Part shown: piece by piece, positions 562 through 14,406 of the stretch
How the letters are laid out: every line of letters begins with the position of its first letter
Numbering within the stretch: the stretch's first letter is position 1
Assembly: GCF_034314085.1 (NCBI RefSeq)
Contig: NZ_JAVIWI010000001.1
Coordinates: 1,426,001-1,490,000 of the forward strand
From: Undibacterium sp. 5I1
Lineage (GTDB): Bacteria; Pseudomonadota; Gammaproteobacteria; Burkholderiales; Burkholderiaceae_D
Direction of reading: 5' to 3'
DNA: 64,000 nucleotides
The notes under the pieces: model-generated
What the model was told of the DNA's origin: nothing
What the model saw: the letters and a program-made list of their open reading frames with translations, nothing else
The model's database searches: none
Position numbers and translations under genes: made by a program

Positions 562-1830
562 ATGCTCAAAATTGACATCCTCCCCGCCCAAAAGGACGGG
601 GATTCCTACAGCGCTGCGCGATGATTTGTGAGTCGCTTCGGTGGGTTCCTGCTTCATCGAGCGGCCTGACTGCACCGACTCTCCACAGGCTAACAAGCGG
701 TATCCCCGCTCTAAAATATTGATCGCACCGACCACGTCGGCGTGATTTTCGTAGCCACAATCGACACACAGGAATTTCGCCTGAGTCTGCCGGTTGTCTT
801 TCGATACATGGCCGCAGGCCGGGCAAGTGCGACTGGTGTTGTGGGGTGGCACAGCCAGCAGCATCCCGCCGTGCCACACTACCTTATACGCCAGTTGTCG
901 TCTGAATTCACCCCAGCCTTGATCGAGGATGGAGCGGTTTAAGCCGGACTTTTGCGCTACTTTTTTTCCATTCTGTTCGCTATTGCCTTTTGAAGACCTG
1001 GACATATTTTTGACCTGCAAATTCTCAATACATACGAGCGCGTGGTTTTGGCTGATCGTCGTGGTGGCTTTGTGCAAGAAGTCTTTTCTGGCGTTGGCGA
1101 TGGTGCTGTGAATCTGCTGGACTTTGGCTTTCGCCTTCTTCCAGTTACTGCTGAACTTGACCTTGCGGCTCATGCGGCGCTGGTAACGCGCAAGACGCTG
1201 CTGGTGTTTCTTGAAACTGTTGAGTGGCGCGATATAGCTTTCGTCGCTCAAGGTGGCGAACCGGGCAATACCCACATCGATACCAATAGCCCAAGCCGCT
1301 GTTGTCAGGGGTTGCTCGACTTCTCGTTCAGTCTGGATCGACTCGAACCATTTACCGCCCGATTGACTGACGGTGACATTGCGCACCTCGCCCAGCACGT
1401 TACGGCTGTTTCGGTAGCGTATCCAGCCAAGTTTCGGCAGGAGAATGCGGTCGTCGACCTGATCGAGATTAATCTGCTTAGGGTCGGGGTAACGGAAGCT
1501 GTCGCCACTGCTCTTCTTTTTAAAACGCGGAAAGTCAGCGCGTTTAGCAAAGAAGTTTTTGTAGGCCTTTTCCAAATCTTTCAATGCATGTTGCAGCGCC
1601 TGGGAGGGCGTTTCTTTGAGCCATTGCGTACCAGTTTCACGCTTCCAGATTGGTAGGTTTGCTGCCATCGGCACGTAGCCGATGTACTTGTTTCCGGCTT
1701 CGTGGTTCTGCTTTTGTAATGCTAAAGCCTTGTTATAGACAAACCTACACGACCCGGCGAAGCGACGCATATCGCGCTGCTGTTCGCCGTTTGGCATCAG
1801 TGCGTATTTAAAGGCTTGAAGTCTTTGCAT
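490..1830 (-). CDS. tnpB: TnpB RNA-guided nuclease (IS605 OrfB), copy 1
   Basis: 446 codons from ATG at 1830. The RuvC-like triad is complete: D185 in [10 protein letters not shown]269 in CIENLQV and D365 in [10 protein letters not shown] zinc ribbon with two CxxC pairs lies between the second and third motifs. TnpB proteins use an omega RNA made from the element's right end to cut DNA next to a target-adjacent motif. The ATG at 1830 was chosen because it matches the paralogue at 14427 (MQRLQA start); the open frame continues upstream but would overlap tnpA. Unlike the paralogue (405 aa), this copy has no stop inside the element. It reads through the right end and about 27 codons into the flank, antisense to the M48 gene. 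Function intact by motifs; activity not shown. Confidence 0.85.
552..720 (-). ncRNA. Predicted omega RNA of element 1 (scaffold plus flank-derived guide)
   Basis: By analogy with characterised IS200/IS605 systems, the RNA guide of TnpB is transcribed from the 3' part of tnpB through the right end into the flank. Here the element ends at 572, so the guide would be the complement of about 571-552, at the 3' end of and just beyond the M48 gene. The 5' boundary is a guess. No transcript evidence is available. Confidence 0.4.
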
Positions 1831-2352
1831 CGTTAGATCATAGTCTGGTCTATGAGCGAAGACAACAACGATATTAGGAATGGAAGACACTGTGTATTTA
1901 TGATGCATGTACATCTGGTCTTTGTGACGAAATACCGTCGCGGGGTATTCACAAAAGAGATTCTTGACGACCTGCGCCCAATATTTTCCAGTGTCTGCAA
2001 TGACTTTGAATCGGAACTGGTAGAGTTCGACGGTGAGGACGATCACGTTCACCTCTTAGTGAATTACCCGCCTAAAGTGGCAGTGTCAAAATTGGTTAAT
2101 AGCCTCAAGGGAATATCGAGTTTAATGATTAGGAAGAAAAAATATCCGAGCATTCAAAAGAAATTATGGGGCGGTGCTTTGTGGTCGCCTAGCTACTTCG
2201 CTGGAAGCTGCGGCGGTGCGCCTATTGCTGTGATTCGCAAGTACATCGAGCAACAGCAAACGCCGCATTAAACCGAAAGTCCAAGACAAGGAAGGCTTCG
2301 CCTTCCGCGCTTACATCCCCGCCCTGAAGGGCGAGGTTTACGCGAAAATCGG
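572..2352 (-). mobile_element. IS200/IS605-family element 1 (tnpA + tnpB)
   Basis: The element carries a Y1 HUH transposase (tnpA, plus strand) and a divergent tnpB (minus strand). Read on the tnpB strand the right end finishes in GGATGTCAA (TCAA at 575-572). The left end starts just 3' of TTTAT (complement of 2353-2357). Both termini hold short hairpins: near 583-600 and near 2296-2335. There is no target duplication, as expected for single-strand transposition by this family. The boundaries were set by comparing three related elements in the window, which share the TCAA right end; elements 1 and 3 also share the TTTAT target. Confidence 0.85.
1852..2271 (+). CDS. tnpA: IS200/IS605 transposase TnpA (Y1 HUH)
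   Basis: 139 aa, normal length for the family. H65-V-H67 in DDHVHLLV is the HUH metal-binding motif, and Y131 in IRKYIEQQ is the expected catalytic tyrosine on the last helix. It would excise and insert the element as single-stranded DNA, pairing the end hairpins with the TTTAT target. The gene is divergent from tnpB with 21 bases between the starts. It is about 75% similar by eye to the copy at 13993-14406, with diverged third positions, so the two are related copies and not a recent duplication. Confidence 0.92.
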   Translation: MSEDNNDIRNGRHCVFMMHVHLVFVTKYRRGVFTKEILDDLRPIFSSVCNDFESELVEFDGEDDHVHLLVNYPPKVAVSKLVNSLKGISSLMIRKKKYPSIQKKLWGGALWSPSYFAGSCGGAPIAVIRKYIEQQQTPH

Positions 2353-4845: not shown

Positions 4846-7038
4846 ATGAAAAATTTACAACTGAAACTAATGACAAGACAGATTCTCGGCGCTGTTGTTG
4901 GTTTGTCGATGTCATCACCTATATTAGCTTTTGCAGAAAATGTGGTAGATGCTCCATCTGATGTTTCTGAGAATACAGTCACGATTGCCGGTGTTAAGTC
5001 AGCAGCATCAAAAGTTGCAATTTCTCAAGGCTCCCTTGCTGCACGTTCTGCTCAATCAGAAATTAGTGATGAATTCGTCAGAAATTACACAGCACCAACT
5101 TCGGATTTTAGTCAAATTATTCAAATGGCACCGGCGATGTATAGCTTTGGTCCTAACGGTCCTGGGCTAGGCGATACGAAAACTAATTTTCGCGGATTTT
5201 CTGACGGAGATTATTCAATTTTATTTGATGGGATACCGTTTCAAGACACGAATAGCCCAAGCCATCATTCCTGGGCATTTTTTCCTGCACCCTTTGTAGG
5301 TGGTGCTGTGATTGATCGAAGCCCTGGCTCCGCAGCCAGTTTGGGACCAGCCAATTTTGGGGGTTCAATCAATTTGTTGTCACGTAACCTCGAAACCCAG
5401 AAAAGAATTTCAGGTACTGCCTCTTTGGGAACGTGGAATACTAGTTTAATTGGTGCAGAATTTGAATCTGGTCAATTTGGTCGGGACGGCTCATCGAACC
5501 TGTTATTCAATGCTCACGAGTTGAAATCGGATGGCTATCAAACTTTGAACAAACAGCAGAGAGATGCCTTATCTGCGAAATATCAATATGTAATTTCTCC
5601 GGATACAGTTTTAACTTTGTTCGGCTCTTATATTACTGTGCATTCAAATACACCAAATATCAAAGGTGCAACCCGCAGCGATATTGCAAAATTTGGGGAC
5701 AATTATTTGCTCGCGTCAGATCCGACTCAGGCCAATTATTTCGCGTACAATTTTTATCATGTCAATACAGATTTTGAATATGCAGGGTTAACTTCAAACT
5801 TGGGGAATGGCTGGAAGCTAGATAATAAGACTTACACCTACTATTACCATAATCAACAAAATTATCCGGGCGCTACCATTCCATTGACCACGGCAAATAC
5901 GACTGCAAACAATTCGGGGACGGATAAACTCAATAGTTATCGTACTTACGGAAATATTTTACGTCTCAATCGTGATACCGAGATGGGGACATTGCGTACT
6001 GGTTTGTGGTCGGAAGTTGCCGACACTAACCGATACCAGATTCCGAGCAATCCTTTGACATGGATAGATTCTGCAATCCCTAATTTTCGTGAAACGTTCA
6101 AAACAACTTTGCTTCAACCGTTCATTGAATATGAACTCAACCTAAGTAAAGATTTAAAAGTAACTGCAGGTGTTAAATATTCTTCCTATAAACAAGATTT
6201 AACCCAGTTTGCCGACAACGGGAAAACCGTCGGCAATTTAAACGGCGCAGCAAGTATTGGACATGTAGCTAGCTACCACACATTTTTGCCGTCAATTGAC
6301 GCGCACTACATGTTACAAGCCAACTGGTCAGCTTATGCACAGTTCGCTACGGGTGACGAAATTCCACCATCGAATGTATTTGACGTAAAAAATGCTAATG
6401 TTACGGCCTTGCCTGCTTCGATAAAAAGTAAAACTATCCAAATCGGTTCAGTCTGGAAAGGTGATAGCCTTACCTTTGATATGGACGCCTATCACATCAA
6501 GTTTGATAATGCTTATTCATCCACGACTGACGCAGCGGGAAATACAACATTCTTTGCTAATGGTAGTTCAGTTAATCAAGGGATAGAGGCGGAAAGTACG
6601 TTAGTTCTGGGTAGCGGATTTAACTTATATATTAATGGCACTTATGGAAGTTCTAAATATTCGACTAGTGACCAATGGGTTCAAAACGCGCCAAGCGATA
6701 CTGAGACTTTAGGTTTGAACTATCAGCGAAACCAATGGAATGCAGGCTGGTTCACTAAGCGCGTAGGGAAAATGTATAACGATAACGGCGGAACACATGA
6801 GGCTATCACCATTAACCCTTTTGTAATTTCCAATGTATTTGTAAATTACTCGTTGAAAAATATGTCTACTTTTTTAAAGGGTGGAAAACTACAACTGAGT
6901 GTTAATAATTTATTTGACAAACACAGTATCGTTGGTGTGACACCTGCGAGTAAGACAAGCTCAGTTGCAGCGGCAGGAGATCAATTGACTCTTCTACCTG
7001 CTCGAAGTGTATCGCTTGCATTAACAGTAGATTTTTAA
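4846..7038 (+). CDS. TonB-dependent outer-membrane receptor 1
   Basis: 730 aa with a signal peptide (basic start, hydrophobic core, cleavage near SPILAFA-EN). A plug domain follows at about residues 75-190 (FRGF, ILFDGIPF, GGSINL segments typical of TonB plugs), then a long beta-barrel ending in LALTVDF with the terminal aromatic residue used for outer-membrane insertion. Such receptors import iron chelates, vitamin B12, nickel or other large ligands using TonB energy. The substrate cannot be read from sequence. Divergent from TCS1, and followed by a strong terminator at 7102, so it is a single-gene transcript. Confidence 0.9.
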   Translation: MKNLQLKLMTRQILGAVVGLSMSSPILAFAENVVDAPSDVSENTVTIAGVKSAASKVAISQGSLAARSAQSEISDEFVRNYTAPTSDFSQIIQMAPAMYSFGPNGPGLGDTKTNFRGFSDGDYSILFDGIPFQDTNSPSHHSWAFFPAPFVGGAVIDRSPGSAASLGPANFGGSINLLSRNLETQKRISGTASLGTWNTSLIGAEFESGQFGRDGSSNLLFNAHELKSDGYQTLNKQQRDALSAKYQYVISPDTVLTLFGSYITVHSNTPNIKGATRSDIAKFGDNYLLASDPTQANYFAYNFYHVNTDFEYAGLTSNLGNGWKLDNKTYTYYYHNQQNYPGATIPLTTANTTANNSGTDKLNSYRTYGNILRLNRDTEMGTLRTGLWSEVADTNRYQIPSNPLTWIDSAIPNFRETFKTTLLQPFIEYELNLSKDLKVTAGVKYSSYKQDLTQFADNGKTVGNLNGAASIGHVASYHTFLPSIDAHYMLQANWSAYAQFATGDEIPPSNVFDVKNANVTALPASIKSKTIQIGSVWKGDSLTFDMDAYHIKFDNAYSSTTDAAGNTTFFANGSSVNQGIEAESTLVLGSGFNLYINGTYGSSKYSTSDQWVQNAPSDTETLGLNYQRNQWNAGWFTKRVGKMYNDNGGTHEAITINPFVISNVFVNYSLKNMSTFLKGGKLQLSVNNLFDKHSIVGVTPASKTSSVAAAGDQLTLLPARSVSLALTVDF

Positions 7039-7101
7039 TTTTTGAAATTACGAAAGCCAGCTTACCAACGATTTCCCTTAATTGATAAAAATTATTTAGT
7101 C

Positions 7102-7133
7102 AAAAAAACCTCCAGCATATTTGGAGGTTTTTT
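7102..7133 (+). terminator. Rho-independent terminator after TonB receptor 1
   Basis: Inverted repeat AAACCTCCA / TGGAGGTTT with a short loop, flanked by an A-run and a T-run. It is therefore able to work in both directions. It lies 64 bases after the receptor stop. Confidence 0.85.
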
Positions 7134-7374
7134 CTTTTGAACGTTAGTGAACTACAGGCATTTCGATCAAATCAACAGGATGCTGCCATTGAGACGGTAG
7201 GCACCAGCAATAGCAGGCCTTAAGAAAAAAATCATCGGCGTTAATTTTTGTATAAAAAATGTGTTCAATTTCACATAAACCGAAATAATGCAACCAGCGC
7301 TAGACAAAATGTCCATCTTGGAAATCGAAATGCCTTATCTCACGTTCGCTAAGTGCTTTGGACCAAATTTAAGA

Positions 7375-8079
7375 CTAATGTGATGCTACCGCTTTAGGTT
7401 CCGTGAAACAAACGAATGATGAAGTCATCGAATCACGGAACGACCGCTCAAACTTCGACGGCTCAGGTAACAATTTTTTTAAAGTTTGGACGACTCGAAG
7501 CAAGCGAAAATCGTTTTCCGGCGCATCGTCGCAGGTATCGTTGATACAAAAAAACGGCAGTTCGCCAAAGTTAGTAATTAGCGAATCGAATTGTCGCTTA
7601 GCATGATTGTCGCCTGTATTAATATGCAAGGGGTCCAGTACTATTTGTTGAGCGATGCCGATATGTACCATCCAGCGCGGAACTAGATCGGGGACAATTG
7701 CCGGTGATTGCCATGAGCGGAATGTTGTTGAACGTACACGCTCAAATAATTCTGGCGCAATTTGCTCAAGCGCAAACATTGCACTCCTGAGCATTGGGCG
7801 GGGTGAATGCGAATAAACGCGGGGATCATGACTGTATGCTGAATAGCGCTTTGACAACCAAGCCTTCGATAGTATGGACGCGTTGACCAATGCGGACTCA
7901 TTAGGTTGTAGGACTTCATACTCTGGTATTGATTTTGTTTCGGAAAAAATTTTCAGACAGTCACCAAACCACCAATCAACATCAACTTCTGCATCGAAAA
8001 AAACATCGTCATTAAGACAGTCGTCCCTGAAATAAACCGCAACACCAAGCAGGAAGCGGTATACAAGACGAATAAGAAC
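7375..8079 (-). pseudogene. Stealth-family sugar-phosphotransferase, 5' end removed
   Basis: On the minus strand a frame with no early Met is open from 8079 to the TAG at 7375 (234 codons). It reads LNDDVFFDAEV, then HDPRVYSHSPRPMLRSAMFA, TTFRSW and further on WMVHIGIAQ. This order (a DD-containing region, a conserved HxP region, then an FR-containing region) matches conserved regions 2-4 of Stealth proteins, which transfer hexose-1-phosphate to capsule or exopolysaccharide. The N-terminal region 1 is missing: the frame is cut where the IS5-like element begins near 8080. Family assignment rests on motif memory and not on a search. A TTG at 7890 could start a shorter product, but a functional enzyme is unlikely. 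Confidence 0.6.
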
Positions 8080-8355
8080 CTATAAATTCACTAGGAATGG
8101 CAAATCACTCTGCGAAATCTGGTGAATTGATGACTCCCAAAGAGACTGACTTCAAACGCGAACATGAGCTGTTCCGGCTCGAATTGAACAACATGGTGGA
8201 TCATCGCCATGCTCTGGTAAAACTCTCCCACCAAATTAACTGGCAAGCGTTTGTCACCGAGTTCGGGCCACTCTACGCCGAAGGCAAAGGGCGTCCGGGC
8301 GTTGCCATCCGTTTGATGGTCGGCTTGAACTACCTCGAACACACGTTCAATTTAT

Positions 8356-9628
8356 CCAGATAGCGCGTAAAACACGGTCCTTCAGGGCGGTGATATCAGC
8401 GCGGGAGGCGTCAGCCTCATTGCTTTTTGGTCGTTAAACGATATACTGATTATATATACAGTCATCAGCAATTCCATGCCCAGAGATAGTTCAACGCCCC
8501 CTAATAAACCCGTTCTCAATACGCGAGTACTCCGCTTGCGTATCAAAGACAAACACGCTGCCGTATTGCGCGATCGTGCGATGTGGGCCAATCAGGTCTG
8601 GAATTACTGCAATGACTTGCAGCAGCAAGTGTGGCGTCGCGAGAAGCGTTTGCTTTCTGGTTACGACTTTGCCCCGTTCACCAAAGGCGCTGGCAAAGAA
8701 GGTATCCCACTTCACTCGCAGACTATCCAGGCGATCTCCGAAGAATACGCCACCCGCCGTAAGCAATTCAAAAAGATTAAACTACGCTGGCGTGTCTCTC
8801 GCGGGAACAAGCGATCACTAGGCTGGATCCCTTTTAAAGCGTCAGCACTAAGCTACCGTAACGGTCAACTCTGGATGTCCGGTATCGATACGCCTTTGTG
8901 CTTGTGGGATAGCTACGGCCTTTCACAATACCAATTGGGTGCCGGTAATCTCTCTGAGGATGCCCGAGGTCGCTGGTACATCAATATCACCGTGAAAGTA
9001 GCCAGGCAGGCCCCTGTCGAAGGTAAGGCTGACGTGGGCATCGATCTGGGATTAAAAGACTTTGCCGGTTTCTCTGATCCAGTTCTGGACAATGTCGAGG
9101 CACAGAAGTATTACCGTGGCGCCGAGGTCAAATTAGGTATGGCACAACGGGCTAAGAAGAAGCGCCTGGTTAAATCGATCCATGCCAAGATTGCCAACCG
9201 GCGTAAGGATCATCATCACCAACTCAGCACCAAGCTAGTCAGACGCTATGGTGCGATCTTCGTGGGAAACGTGAATGCGAGTAGTCTGGTGAAGACCAAG
9301 ATGGCAAAATCGGTCTTGGATGCAGGCTGGTCACAATTCAGAACCATGCTGTCTTACAAATGCGATGACGCAGGCGTATGGTTTGAAGAAGTCAACGAAG
9401 CGTATTCTACCCAAGACTGTTCTGCGTGTTTTGCACGCAGCGGCCCGAAAGGACTGAAAGATCTTGGAATAAGAGAATGGACTTGTCCGCACTGCGGCAC
9501 GATGCATGATCGTGATCGCAATGCAGCTAAGAACATTCTCCGTCGAGGACGAGCGACGCTGGTAGCAGGAATCCCCTTCCTTTCTGTGTAAGCAGCAGCC
9601 GCACGGCTGAGGTGGGGGAGGACGTCAA
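8356..9628 (+). mobile_element. tnpB-only IS200/IS605 (IS1341-type) element inside the IS5-like transposase
   Basis: The left flank ends in TTTAT (8351-8355) and the element ends in GACGTCAA (TCAA at 9625-9628). Removing 8356-9628 restores the interrupted transposase frame exactly, so the boundaries are supported by the host gene. Hairpins lie near each end (8428-8441 region and CAGCCG/CGGCTG near 9594-9609). It has no tnpA and must have been moved by a TnpA supplied in trans; elements 1 and 2 in this window supply possible ones and have related ends. Confidence 0.9.
8476..9591 (+). CDS. tnpB: TnpB-family RNA-guided nuclease with altered RuvC-II motif
   Basis: 371 aa from ATG at 8476. D190 in VGIDLGLKDF is the first RuvC aspartate and the late HDRDRNAAKN (D347) supplies the last. 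A zinc ribbon (CSAC ... CPHC) lies between. At the usual second-motif glutamate the sequence reads IFVGNVNASS, with glycine where copies 1 and 2 have E269. Some TnpB groups are known with a rearranged catalytic glutamate; the nearby FEEVNEAYS (about 303-311) is a possible substitute, but a nuclease-dead protein cannot be excluded. No tnpA partner in the element. Confidence 0.85.
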   Translation: MPRDSSTPPNKPVLNTRVLRLRIKDKHAAVLRDRAMWANQVWNYCNDLQQQVWRREKRLLSGYDFAPFTKGAGKEGIPLHSQTIQAISEEYATRRKQFKKIKLRWRVSRGNKRSLGWIPFKASALSYRNGQLWMSGIDTPLCLWDSYGLSQYQLGAGNLSEDARGRWYINITVKVARQAPVEGKADVGIDLGLKDFAGFSDPVLDNVEAQKYYRGAEVKLGMAQRAKKKRLVKSIHAKIANRRKDHHHQLSTKLVRRYGAIFVGNVNASSLVKTKMAKSVLDAGWSQFRTMLSYKCDDAGVWFEEVNEAYSTQDCSACFARSGPKGLKDLGIREWTCPHCGTMHDRDRNAAKNILRRGRATLVAGIPFLSV

Positions 9629-9648
9629 CCGACGAAGAAGTCGTGGAG
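9500..9648 (+). ncRNA. Predicted omega RNA of the tnpB-only element
   Basis: Inferred from the known architecture of tnpB loci: scaffold from the 3' end of tnpB and the right end, guide from the flank. The guide would be 9629-9648, which is coding sequence of the interrupted IS5-like transposase. The start is approximate. Confidence 0.4.
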
Positions 9649-10760
9649 CGCTGTATTGAGAATCCCTACTGGCAATACTTCTGCGGCGAATAGTATTTCA
9701 ACCATCGCCTGCCGATCGATCCAAGCCAGATGACGCGCTTTCGTAAGCGCATCGGAACGGCCGGTTGCGAAACCATGCTGAAGATGTCGATTCAAGCAAG
9801 ACTCCCCAGCAAGACCATCACGCCGCGCTCGCTGCAAGTGGTCAATGTGGATACGACAGTGCAAGATAAGGCAATCGCTTTCCCGACCGATGCACGGCTG
9901 TACCACAAGGCACGTGCTGCATTAGTGCGACAAGCCAAGAAGTGCCGTTTGCAATTACGTCAAAGCGACGAACGGCTAAGCAAACGCGACCTAATGATGA
10001 ATGGGCGCTACGCTCATGCCAAGCAGATGAAGCGCGCCAGAAGCATGCAGAAGCGTTTGCGTACCTACCTGGGTTGTGTCATTCGCGACATCGAACGCAA
10101 GCTCCAGAGCCAACCGTAGTTGACCGAGCACTTTGCCAAACTGCTGGAGATCGCCAAACACATCCACCTACAGCAGCGGCAAGACAACGACAAACTCTAC
10201 AACGTCCACGCCCCGGAGACGGAATGCATCGCCAAGGGTAAGGCGCACAAGAAGTACGAGTTCGGCGTCAAGGTCAGCATTGCAAGTACCAGCGCCGATA
10301 ACTTCGTCGTCGGGATGCAGGCATTGCCGGGGCGTCCCTATGATGGCCACACGCTGAAACAGGCGATCGAACAGGTCGCCGCACTCACCAGCACACTTCC
10401 AAAAGAAGCTTACGTTGATCGCGGCTACAAGGGTCACAAATTGGAGGGGTTATCGGTCTGGAGTGCCGGCGCTAAACGTGGTGTGACGGGTGCAATCAAG
10501 AAGAAGCTCGAGCGCAGAAATGCGGTGGAACCCGTCATCGATTACATGAAATCGGACGGTAGGCTGGCGCGAAACTTCCTCAAAGGCGCAGAAGGTGACG
10601 CAATGAATGCCGTATTGTGTGGTGCCGGTCACAATCTGCGAAAAATCCTCAGGCGCCTAACGCTTTTTTGGCTTCGCATTATATTGTCGGGGATGCGTTT
10701 GTTCGATTTACGCATCCCTGCATTTGTACTCGCATGAACAAAAAGCGACTTTTTCAGGCG

Positions 10761-11139
10761 CGACGAATTAGATGGGTTATTTTTCAATTAGCGGATCTAG
10801 TCAAGCTTGATGTTCGTGGTTTCCGTGAAAATAGCATCAAGAGCGCTCTCCGCGAGTTTCTTAGACGCCTGAATTATCCAGCGAAAATCATAATGCTTTG
10901 CGCGCACGGGTACTCGGCATCCCTACTGAGTTTTCGTCAAACAGGACAAACTTCAAATGTTGTTGTATTTCTAAATAATTAAGGATGCTTTAAGTTTTTG
11001 ATTGTTATCTTTTAAAAACTGGTTTTTTTTGGTAAAAATGGGTAGAAAACTTCAATCCCTCGTGATCCAGATGGGCAGCAAATAGTCGATTACGTGCTAC
11101 TTTCTCATCTCGGTCTAATAATCGCCGGCTCACTAGAAC
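10761..11139. other. Spacer with a possible gene remnant
   Basis: No convincing gene. On the plus strand a frame open to 10982 encodes about 70 residues beyond the IS edge (RRIRWVIFQLADLVKL onward, ending VVVFLNN) with no start of its own outside the IS. It may be the 3' scrap of a gene cut by the IS5-like element. From 10983 to 11139 only AT-rich sequence upstream of TonB receptor 2 was seen. Confidence 0.35.
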
Positions 11140-13992: not shown

Positions 13993-14406
13993 TTAATGGG
14001 GTGTATTTTGCTGCTCAATGTACTGCCGAATGATGCTGATCGGAGCGCCGCCGCAGGACGATGCAAAATAGGAGGGCGACCACAATACGCCTTTCCAGTA
14101 TCGATCACGAATATCAGGCCGGTCTTTCCGCAGTAACCGACTAGACACCCCTTTTAGGCTGTTCACCAGCGCCGACACTGCCACCTTTGGCGGGTATTCC
14201 ACGAGCAGATGAACATGGTCGTCTTCGCCGTCCATCTCGATGAGATGCGCATCGAAGTCAGCGCAGACATTGCCGAAGATAGCGCGAAGCCGCTGGACGG
14301 CATCGCCATCAAACACTTTACGGCGATATTTCGCCACAAAGACCAAATGCACGTGCATTTTAAAAACGCAGTGTCTACCCCTACGAATATCATTGTTTTC
14401 TGTCAT
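13993..14406 (-). CDS. tnpA: IS200/IS605 transposase TnpA (Y1 HUH), copy 2
   Basis: 137 aa. HUH motif H64-V-H66 in DDHVHLLVEYP and catalytic Y129 in IIRQYIEQQ are present, so it looks active. Divergent from tnpB at 14427 with 20 bases between starts. Conserved WSPSYFASSCGGAPIS block near the C-terminus as in copy 1. It could mobilise all three elements of the window if their ends are compatible. Confidence 0.92.
   Translation of the reverse strand: MTENNDIRRGRHCVFKMHVHLVFVAKYRRKVFDGDAVQRLRAIFGNVCADFDAHLIEMDGEDDHVHLLVEYPPKVAVSALVNSLKGVSSRLLRKDRPDIRDRYWKGVLWSPSYFASSCGGAPISIIRQYIEQQNTPH

Follow-up and report, generated by a model that had tools for sequence, protein, structure and literature searches.

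Elements that carry tnpB and lie inside the transposase gene of another transposon raise the question of whether the one is directed against the other. The DNA analysed here (the window, a stretch of 64,000 nucleotides from Undibacterium sp. 5I1) contains such a pair, a tnpB-only element within an IS5-like transposase gene (Table 1). TnpB uses an RNA composed of the right end and about 16 nt of the flank, according to the available text of PMC8612924, and the first-pass annotation proposed that the guide would here be aimed at every intact copy of the IS5-like gene. We consider it likely, instead, that the element is a tnpB-only, IS1341-like passenger that is retained by TnpB cutting at its own site and helped by a resident TnpA, and that the transposase gene is an incidental host.

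Anatomy of the element and its insertion junction

The element holds a single ORF, that of TnpB (8476-9591), and no tnpA; all 10 matches to PF01797 in the genome lie elsewhere. A lone tnpB between the ends, a fixed 5' TTTAT and subterminal hairpins at both ends mark 8356-9628 as IS1341-like. The right end closes with GTCAA, and the flank CCGACGAAGAAGTCGTGGAG starts at 9629; the guide taken from it was assigned a length of 20 by assumption. The flanks rejoin in frame, with no target-site duplication. When joined they read ...LNYLEHTFNLSDEEVVERCIENPYWQYFCGE, much like the N-terminal block of IS5-family relatives (for example LQHTFDLSDEDVVWGWVENPYWQLFCGE in L107), and they form the block YLEHTFNLSDEEVVERCIENPYWQYFCGE, which is recognisable in IS5 relatives. 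Because the junction block is matched in IS5-family relatives, restoration of the frame is not due to chance and the junction is right to the base. The sequence therefore confirms the element's exact position inside the IS5-like frame, the TTTAT and the guide flank, all of which had been proposed in the first-pass annotation. The annotation also held that removal of the element restores the frame, which is true locally, but the gene does not become open, as TAG codons persist at 9691 (21 codons on) and at 10117.

The local IS5-like copy is a pseudogene, since it retains these two in-frame stops after joining. Its three pieces match NF033578 with E values of 4.8e-19, 6.2e-40 and 1e-61, each under the whole-protein cut-off. 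With a threshold of 14 matching bases in 18, comparison of 7951-8110 with 10601-10900 showed no terminal inverted repeats of this copy, and a repeat search returned one pair only, which is unrelated. A search of the complete genome with the IS5 3' part matched itself alone, so that this is the only IS5-like copy.

Table 1. Features of the tnpB-only element, its host gene and related elements. Positions refer to the window unless locus L021 is given.
Feature	Position	Strand	Basis
TTTAT, target-side motif (TAM / left cleavage site); also before the second copy and three IS605-type left ends	8351..8355	+	sequence
tnpB-only IS200/IS605-type (IS1341-like) element, 1273 bp	8356..9628	+	sequence, second copy
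Left end with subterminal hairpins	8356..8420	+	DNA fold
tnpB, 371 aa; D190, E308 (Ealt), D347, CxxC...CxxC	8476..9591	+	ORF, profiles, alignment
Right end, predicted to form the 3' scaffold of the omega RNA; hairpin that covaries in relatives, GGGGGAGGACGTCAA end	9568..9628	+	covariation, folds
Predicted guide CCGACGAAGAAGTCGTGGAG, within the host IS5-like gene	9629..9648	+	right flank sequence
IS5-like transposase pseudogene, 5' part	8097..8355	+	NF033578, E 4.8e-19
IS5-like transposase pseudogene, 3' part; TAG at 9691 and 10117, final TGA at 10735	9629..10737	+	NF033578
IS605-type element, TTTAT at 2353-2357; candidate TnpA source in trans	572..2352	-	read end to end
Three fragments, each a right end of this type of TnpB element, with differing flanks	L021 1486-1581, 1733-3234, 3346-3496	-, +, +	similarity search
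Diverged TnpB paralogue, 62% identity, right end GGAGGATGTCAA	L021 7506-8645	-	alignment

A second copy and fragments nearby

A second full copy lies about 15 kb upstream, at C1:1419457-1420729, in the same genome (4.88 Mb in 2 contigs, 100% complete). It is preceded by TTTAT and ends with GTCAA, and its flanks and guide differ from those of the first copy; the same limits within other flanks support the element boundaries independently. The two copies differ at 1 of 1278 positions compared, an A to V change between the first two zinc-finger cysteines. Judged from the sequences, the near-identical pair implies fairly recent movement or duplication, and the two copies could stem from duplication although their flanks differ. 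The element is rare in the genus: of 43 genomes, 3 have DNA matches to it, its own included, and those in the other two are partial.

Further upstream, at C1:1409-1417 kb, lie three right-end fragments and a diverged tnpB paralogue, and their right ends all stop at GTCAA. An IS3 element interrupts the second fragment and has a duplication of three bases, ATG. The right-end fragments could provide guide RNAs in trans, if they are transcribed. The neighbourhood also contains a gene for a 454-aa IscB (NF040563, E 2.7e-132) at L021 15938-17302 (+), equivalent to C1:1423938-1425302. This gene lies about 9 kb from the TnpB element and precedes the start of the window by about 0.7 kb.

The abundance of IS remnants around the locus (the three right-end fragments, including the one split by IS3, the tnpB paralogue and the degenerate IS5) and a mismatch in the left hairpin would suit a decayed relic, in which TnpB and the right end are inactive and erode slowly. 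We regard this as unlikely, because the 371-aa ORF is complete with its catalytic residues kept, and because its twin differs from it by a single base.

Catalytic residues of TnpB

The protein is recognised as TnpB by NF040570 (E 1.6e-68) and also matches OrfB_IS605 and Cas12f1-like_TNB. The canonical RuvC-II glutamate, E278 in ISDra2 TnpB, aligns with Gly264, and this glycine is invariant among 24 aligned sequences (query included), as are D190, E308 and D347. The zinc-finger cysteines C315, C318 and C337 are likewise invariant in the 24, and C340 is present in at least 90% of them. E308 stands six residues ahead of the first zinc-finger cysteine, and a Glu occupies that position in all 79 relatives that could be scored with the pattern (79 of 80). 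The available text of PMC10711439 describes such an arrangement, termed Ealt, which is shared with Fanzors. From the alignment, D190, E308 and D347 are a complete RuvC triad in the Ealt arrangement.

Loss of the canonical glutamate to Gly264 could also point to a nuclease-dead, TldR-like TnpB that acts as an RNA-guided repressor. TldRs are nuclease-dead repressors in which the RuvC triad has been lost. The present protein differs from them in that the triad is kept in its Ealt form. E308 is invariant together with D190 and D347, the zinc finger is intact, and the pattern extends through the family (79/79). The arrangement is, moreover, common to Fanzors, which are RNA-guided endonucleases (PMC10711439, PMC10432273, each as far as its accessible text goes), though the wording of a rearranged glutamate is absent from that part of PMC10432273. 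A repressor of this type is thus extremely improbable.

Hairpins at the ends and the predicted omega RNA

In the terminal stem of the right end, 523 of 608 cells form standard pairs. Slid registers give 345 of 532, 369 of 608 and 279 of 532, and shuffling did not reach 523 in any of 1000 trials (mean 432, maximum 454). These counts draw on 76 of 86 sequences, 10 being without a match; they include five segments that look wrong and were left in (L050, L067, L068, L085 and L101), and the shuffles ignore relatedness. By this measure the right-end stem is covarying in relatives. Because the DNA hairpin for TnpA and the RNA scaffold overlap, the covariation cannot separate an RNA role from a DNA role. 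As RNA, the tnpB 3' end joined to the right end gives a good fold (z -2.40), and the right end alone, folded as DNA, is little better than its shuffles (z -1.01), 34 of 200 of which do as well. Rfam models gave no convincing match over 7000-11000, the best of 3 having an E value of 0.08 and falling under the gathering score.

At the left end, the DNA fold has a z of -2.23 and, by eye, one G.G mismatch in the stem that is absent in the IS605 copies. Hairpins matching the left-end pattern turned up in no more than 8 of the 80 relatives; four of the eight have TTTA[TC], three have TTATC with another preceding base, and one (L055) looks spurious.

The complete Ealt triad and the right-end hairpin that covaries in relatives together make RNA-guided cleavage plausible, and TnpB plausibly still works as an RNA-guided nuclease.

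Resident IS605-type elements as a candidate source of TnpA

Among the PF01797 matches, four score about 150 bits and are without stops. Three of these four adjoin left ends similar to that of the tnpB-only element, with TTTATCC followed by TAAA and a hairpin, and 78-82% identical to it over the first 60-77 bases (n=3). One of the three, at 572-2352, has divergent genes, tnpA at 1852-2271 (+) and tnpB from an ATG at 1830 (-), the frame of the latter remaining open through the right end and on to 490. Its TnpB has the usual glutamate (CIENLQ, by eye). The right end reads GGGGAGGATGTCAA, versus GGGGAGGACGTCAA in the tnpB-only element, with GGGGAGGAYGTCAA common to both; this comparison covers one of the three IS605-type elements, the other two being on contig C2.

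Two types of TnpB appear, from these sequences, to share one kind of ends. We infer that the Y1 TnpA of the resident related IS605-type elements most likely moves the tnpB-only element through the shared ends. Since the mismatch in the left hairpin is absent from the IS605 copies, it is uncertain whether their TnpA would recognise the element. A further stop-free Y1 TnpA match lies at 14008-14370 (-) of the window, with a tnpB start beside it by eye, and similarity to the other left ends revealed no left end there.

Search for targets of the guide

The first-pass annotation suggested a genome search for IS5-like copies that contain TTTAT followed by 9629-9648. With up to 3 mismatches allowed, the search of the own genome recovered the element's own right junction and no second site. 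The guide of the second copy likewise had no other site in the genome at up to 3 mismatches. Across 147 genomes (the own genome and 146 relatives), TTTAT plus guide was found in none at up to 2 mismatches. A degenerate codon-level pattern gave one match in 398 genomes of the phylum, with 5 guide mismatches and in a frame that is not transposase-like by eye, and one in viral contigs, facing a 664-aa ORF on the other strand that is by eye not a transposase. As the own intact site is interrupted, the searches of 147 and 398 genomes carry no positive control.

The C-terminal part of the IS5-like protein was matched in 31 of 399 genomes of the order, the own genome included; with one locus (the best copy) taken per genome, 19 sites were readable, in 18 of 30 loci. 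TTTAT was present at none of the 19, and the guide mismatches ranged from 4 to 10 of 20. Within the genus, 4 of 43 genomes matched the IS5 DNA, again including the own genome, and in the longest other copy (64% identity) CGTCT replaces TTTAT, with 4 guide mismatches (alignment by eye). A plasmid search with the IS5 5' part gave no match. With the 3' part it gave 155 records, none of which had a single place covering 80% of the query; the IS5 copies in the two that were opened are without TTTAT and have 5 and 6 guide mismatches. Altogether, TTTAT was found in 0 of 22 homologous sites (19 order-wide, 2 plasmid, 1 same-genus). The protein motif is partly conserved in these homologues; TTTAT requires the codons AAT TTA T.., and the homologues that were read have other codons or residues.

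These results do not uphold the claim that the guide is aimed at intact IS5-like copies. The idea of a weapon against such copies, and of a drive that copies the element into them, has in its favour that the guide matches a transposase gene, that TnpB appears catalytically complete and that cutting of any copy of an insertion site by TnpB is published (PMC11870625, in its available part). The genome, however, has one dead IS5-like copy and no second target site, no target was found in the 147 genomes, and none of the 22 homologous sites has TTTAT, so that we judge such a role very unlikely. An anti-transposon targeting system would need the other transposon to be present as intact target copies, and such copies were found neither in the genome and its relatives nor among the IS5 homologues and plasmid copies. 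It is equally doubtful, to the point of being very improbable, that the guide is a lasting genomic memory by which intact IS5-like elements of this type that come back into the cell on a plasmid or phage are destroyed or turned into copies bearing tnpB, and that it is spread by the TnpA of elements whose TnpB has the canonical Glu; if true, this would explain why just one dead IS5-like copy remains. The element's own empty site is plausibly the guide's only target, and further plasmids or strains could hold others.

How the element may persist

The reading that we prefer, a passenger kept in place by its own TnpB, builds on the anatomy of the element, the shared ends, the Ealt triad, the covarying hairpin and the absence of other targets in the searched genomes. 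A tnpB-only passenger of the IS200/IS605 system, moved by a Y1 TnpA from the related resident IS605-type elements that recognises the shared ends, would have landed behind a TTTAT in an IS5-like gene, which is dead today. TnpB with the right-end RNA is predicted to cut TTTAT plus CCGACGAAGAAGTCGTGGAG. In this genome such a site would be present only just after excision of the element. Repair from a sister copy would then put the element back, which is the known retention mechanism of TnpB. Transcription, cleavage and the action of TnpA in trans are steps that we infer. The empty site of its own element is what any TnpB guide matches, so the transposase host gene is most simply an accident of landing.

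Comparison with known systems

The use of the own insertion flank as a TnpB guide is already published (PMC8612924, PMC11870625, from the available text of both), and the present element looks like an ordinary self-maintaining example. According to the accessible part of PMC11870625, a preprint, TnpB keeps a record of the site where it inserted and cuts that site wherever it occurs, which results in a gene drive in plasmids. The predicted cutting of every copy of a recorded insertion site is common to that system and ours; in the former, plasmid copies supply the targets, whereas here no second target was found. Besides the plasmid gene drive, TnpB guides against other transposons did not appear as the subject of any title or abstract found, in a literature scope that most subscription journals lie outside. 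The failure of the present element as an anti-transposon system for want of targets is a caution against reading meaning into TnpB guides.

ISDra2 TnpB, as described in the available text of PMC8612924, resembles the present system in the RNA from the tnpB 3' end and the right end with a guide from the flank (predicted here) and in a TAM of 5 bases. The TAM is TTGAT there and TTTAT here, and the RuvC-II glutamate here is at the Ealt position. With the Ealt TnpBs and pro-Fanzors of PMC10711439 (available part) the protein shares a Glu placed six residues ahead of the first CxxC of the zinc finger. Pro-Fanzors and Fanzors have DPG in RuvC-I, where the present protein has DLG (D-hydrophobic-G), and the ends here are of IS200/IS605 type, not IS607.

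IS1341-like tnpB-only elements of the IS200/IS605 family have the same lone tnpB between LE and RE in about 1.27 kb (1252-1393 bp for 10 of the 18 elements of PMC9956272, in its accessible text), no tnpA, TTTAT at the left, TCAA at the right end and no target duplication. Nothing categorical separates the present element from them. In the same text of PMC9956272, the status of IS1341 elements, as autonomous or as decay copies, is called unclear, and a possible evolution independent of IS605 is argued for. The present element has its ends in common with resident IS605-type elements, which offers a direct TnpA candidate. With an element in two copies and IS605-type elements that share its ends, mobility of the IS1341 type by TnpA in trans can be tested with the parts of one genome.
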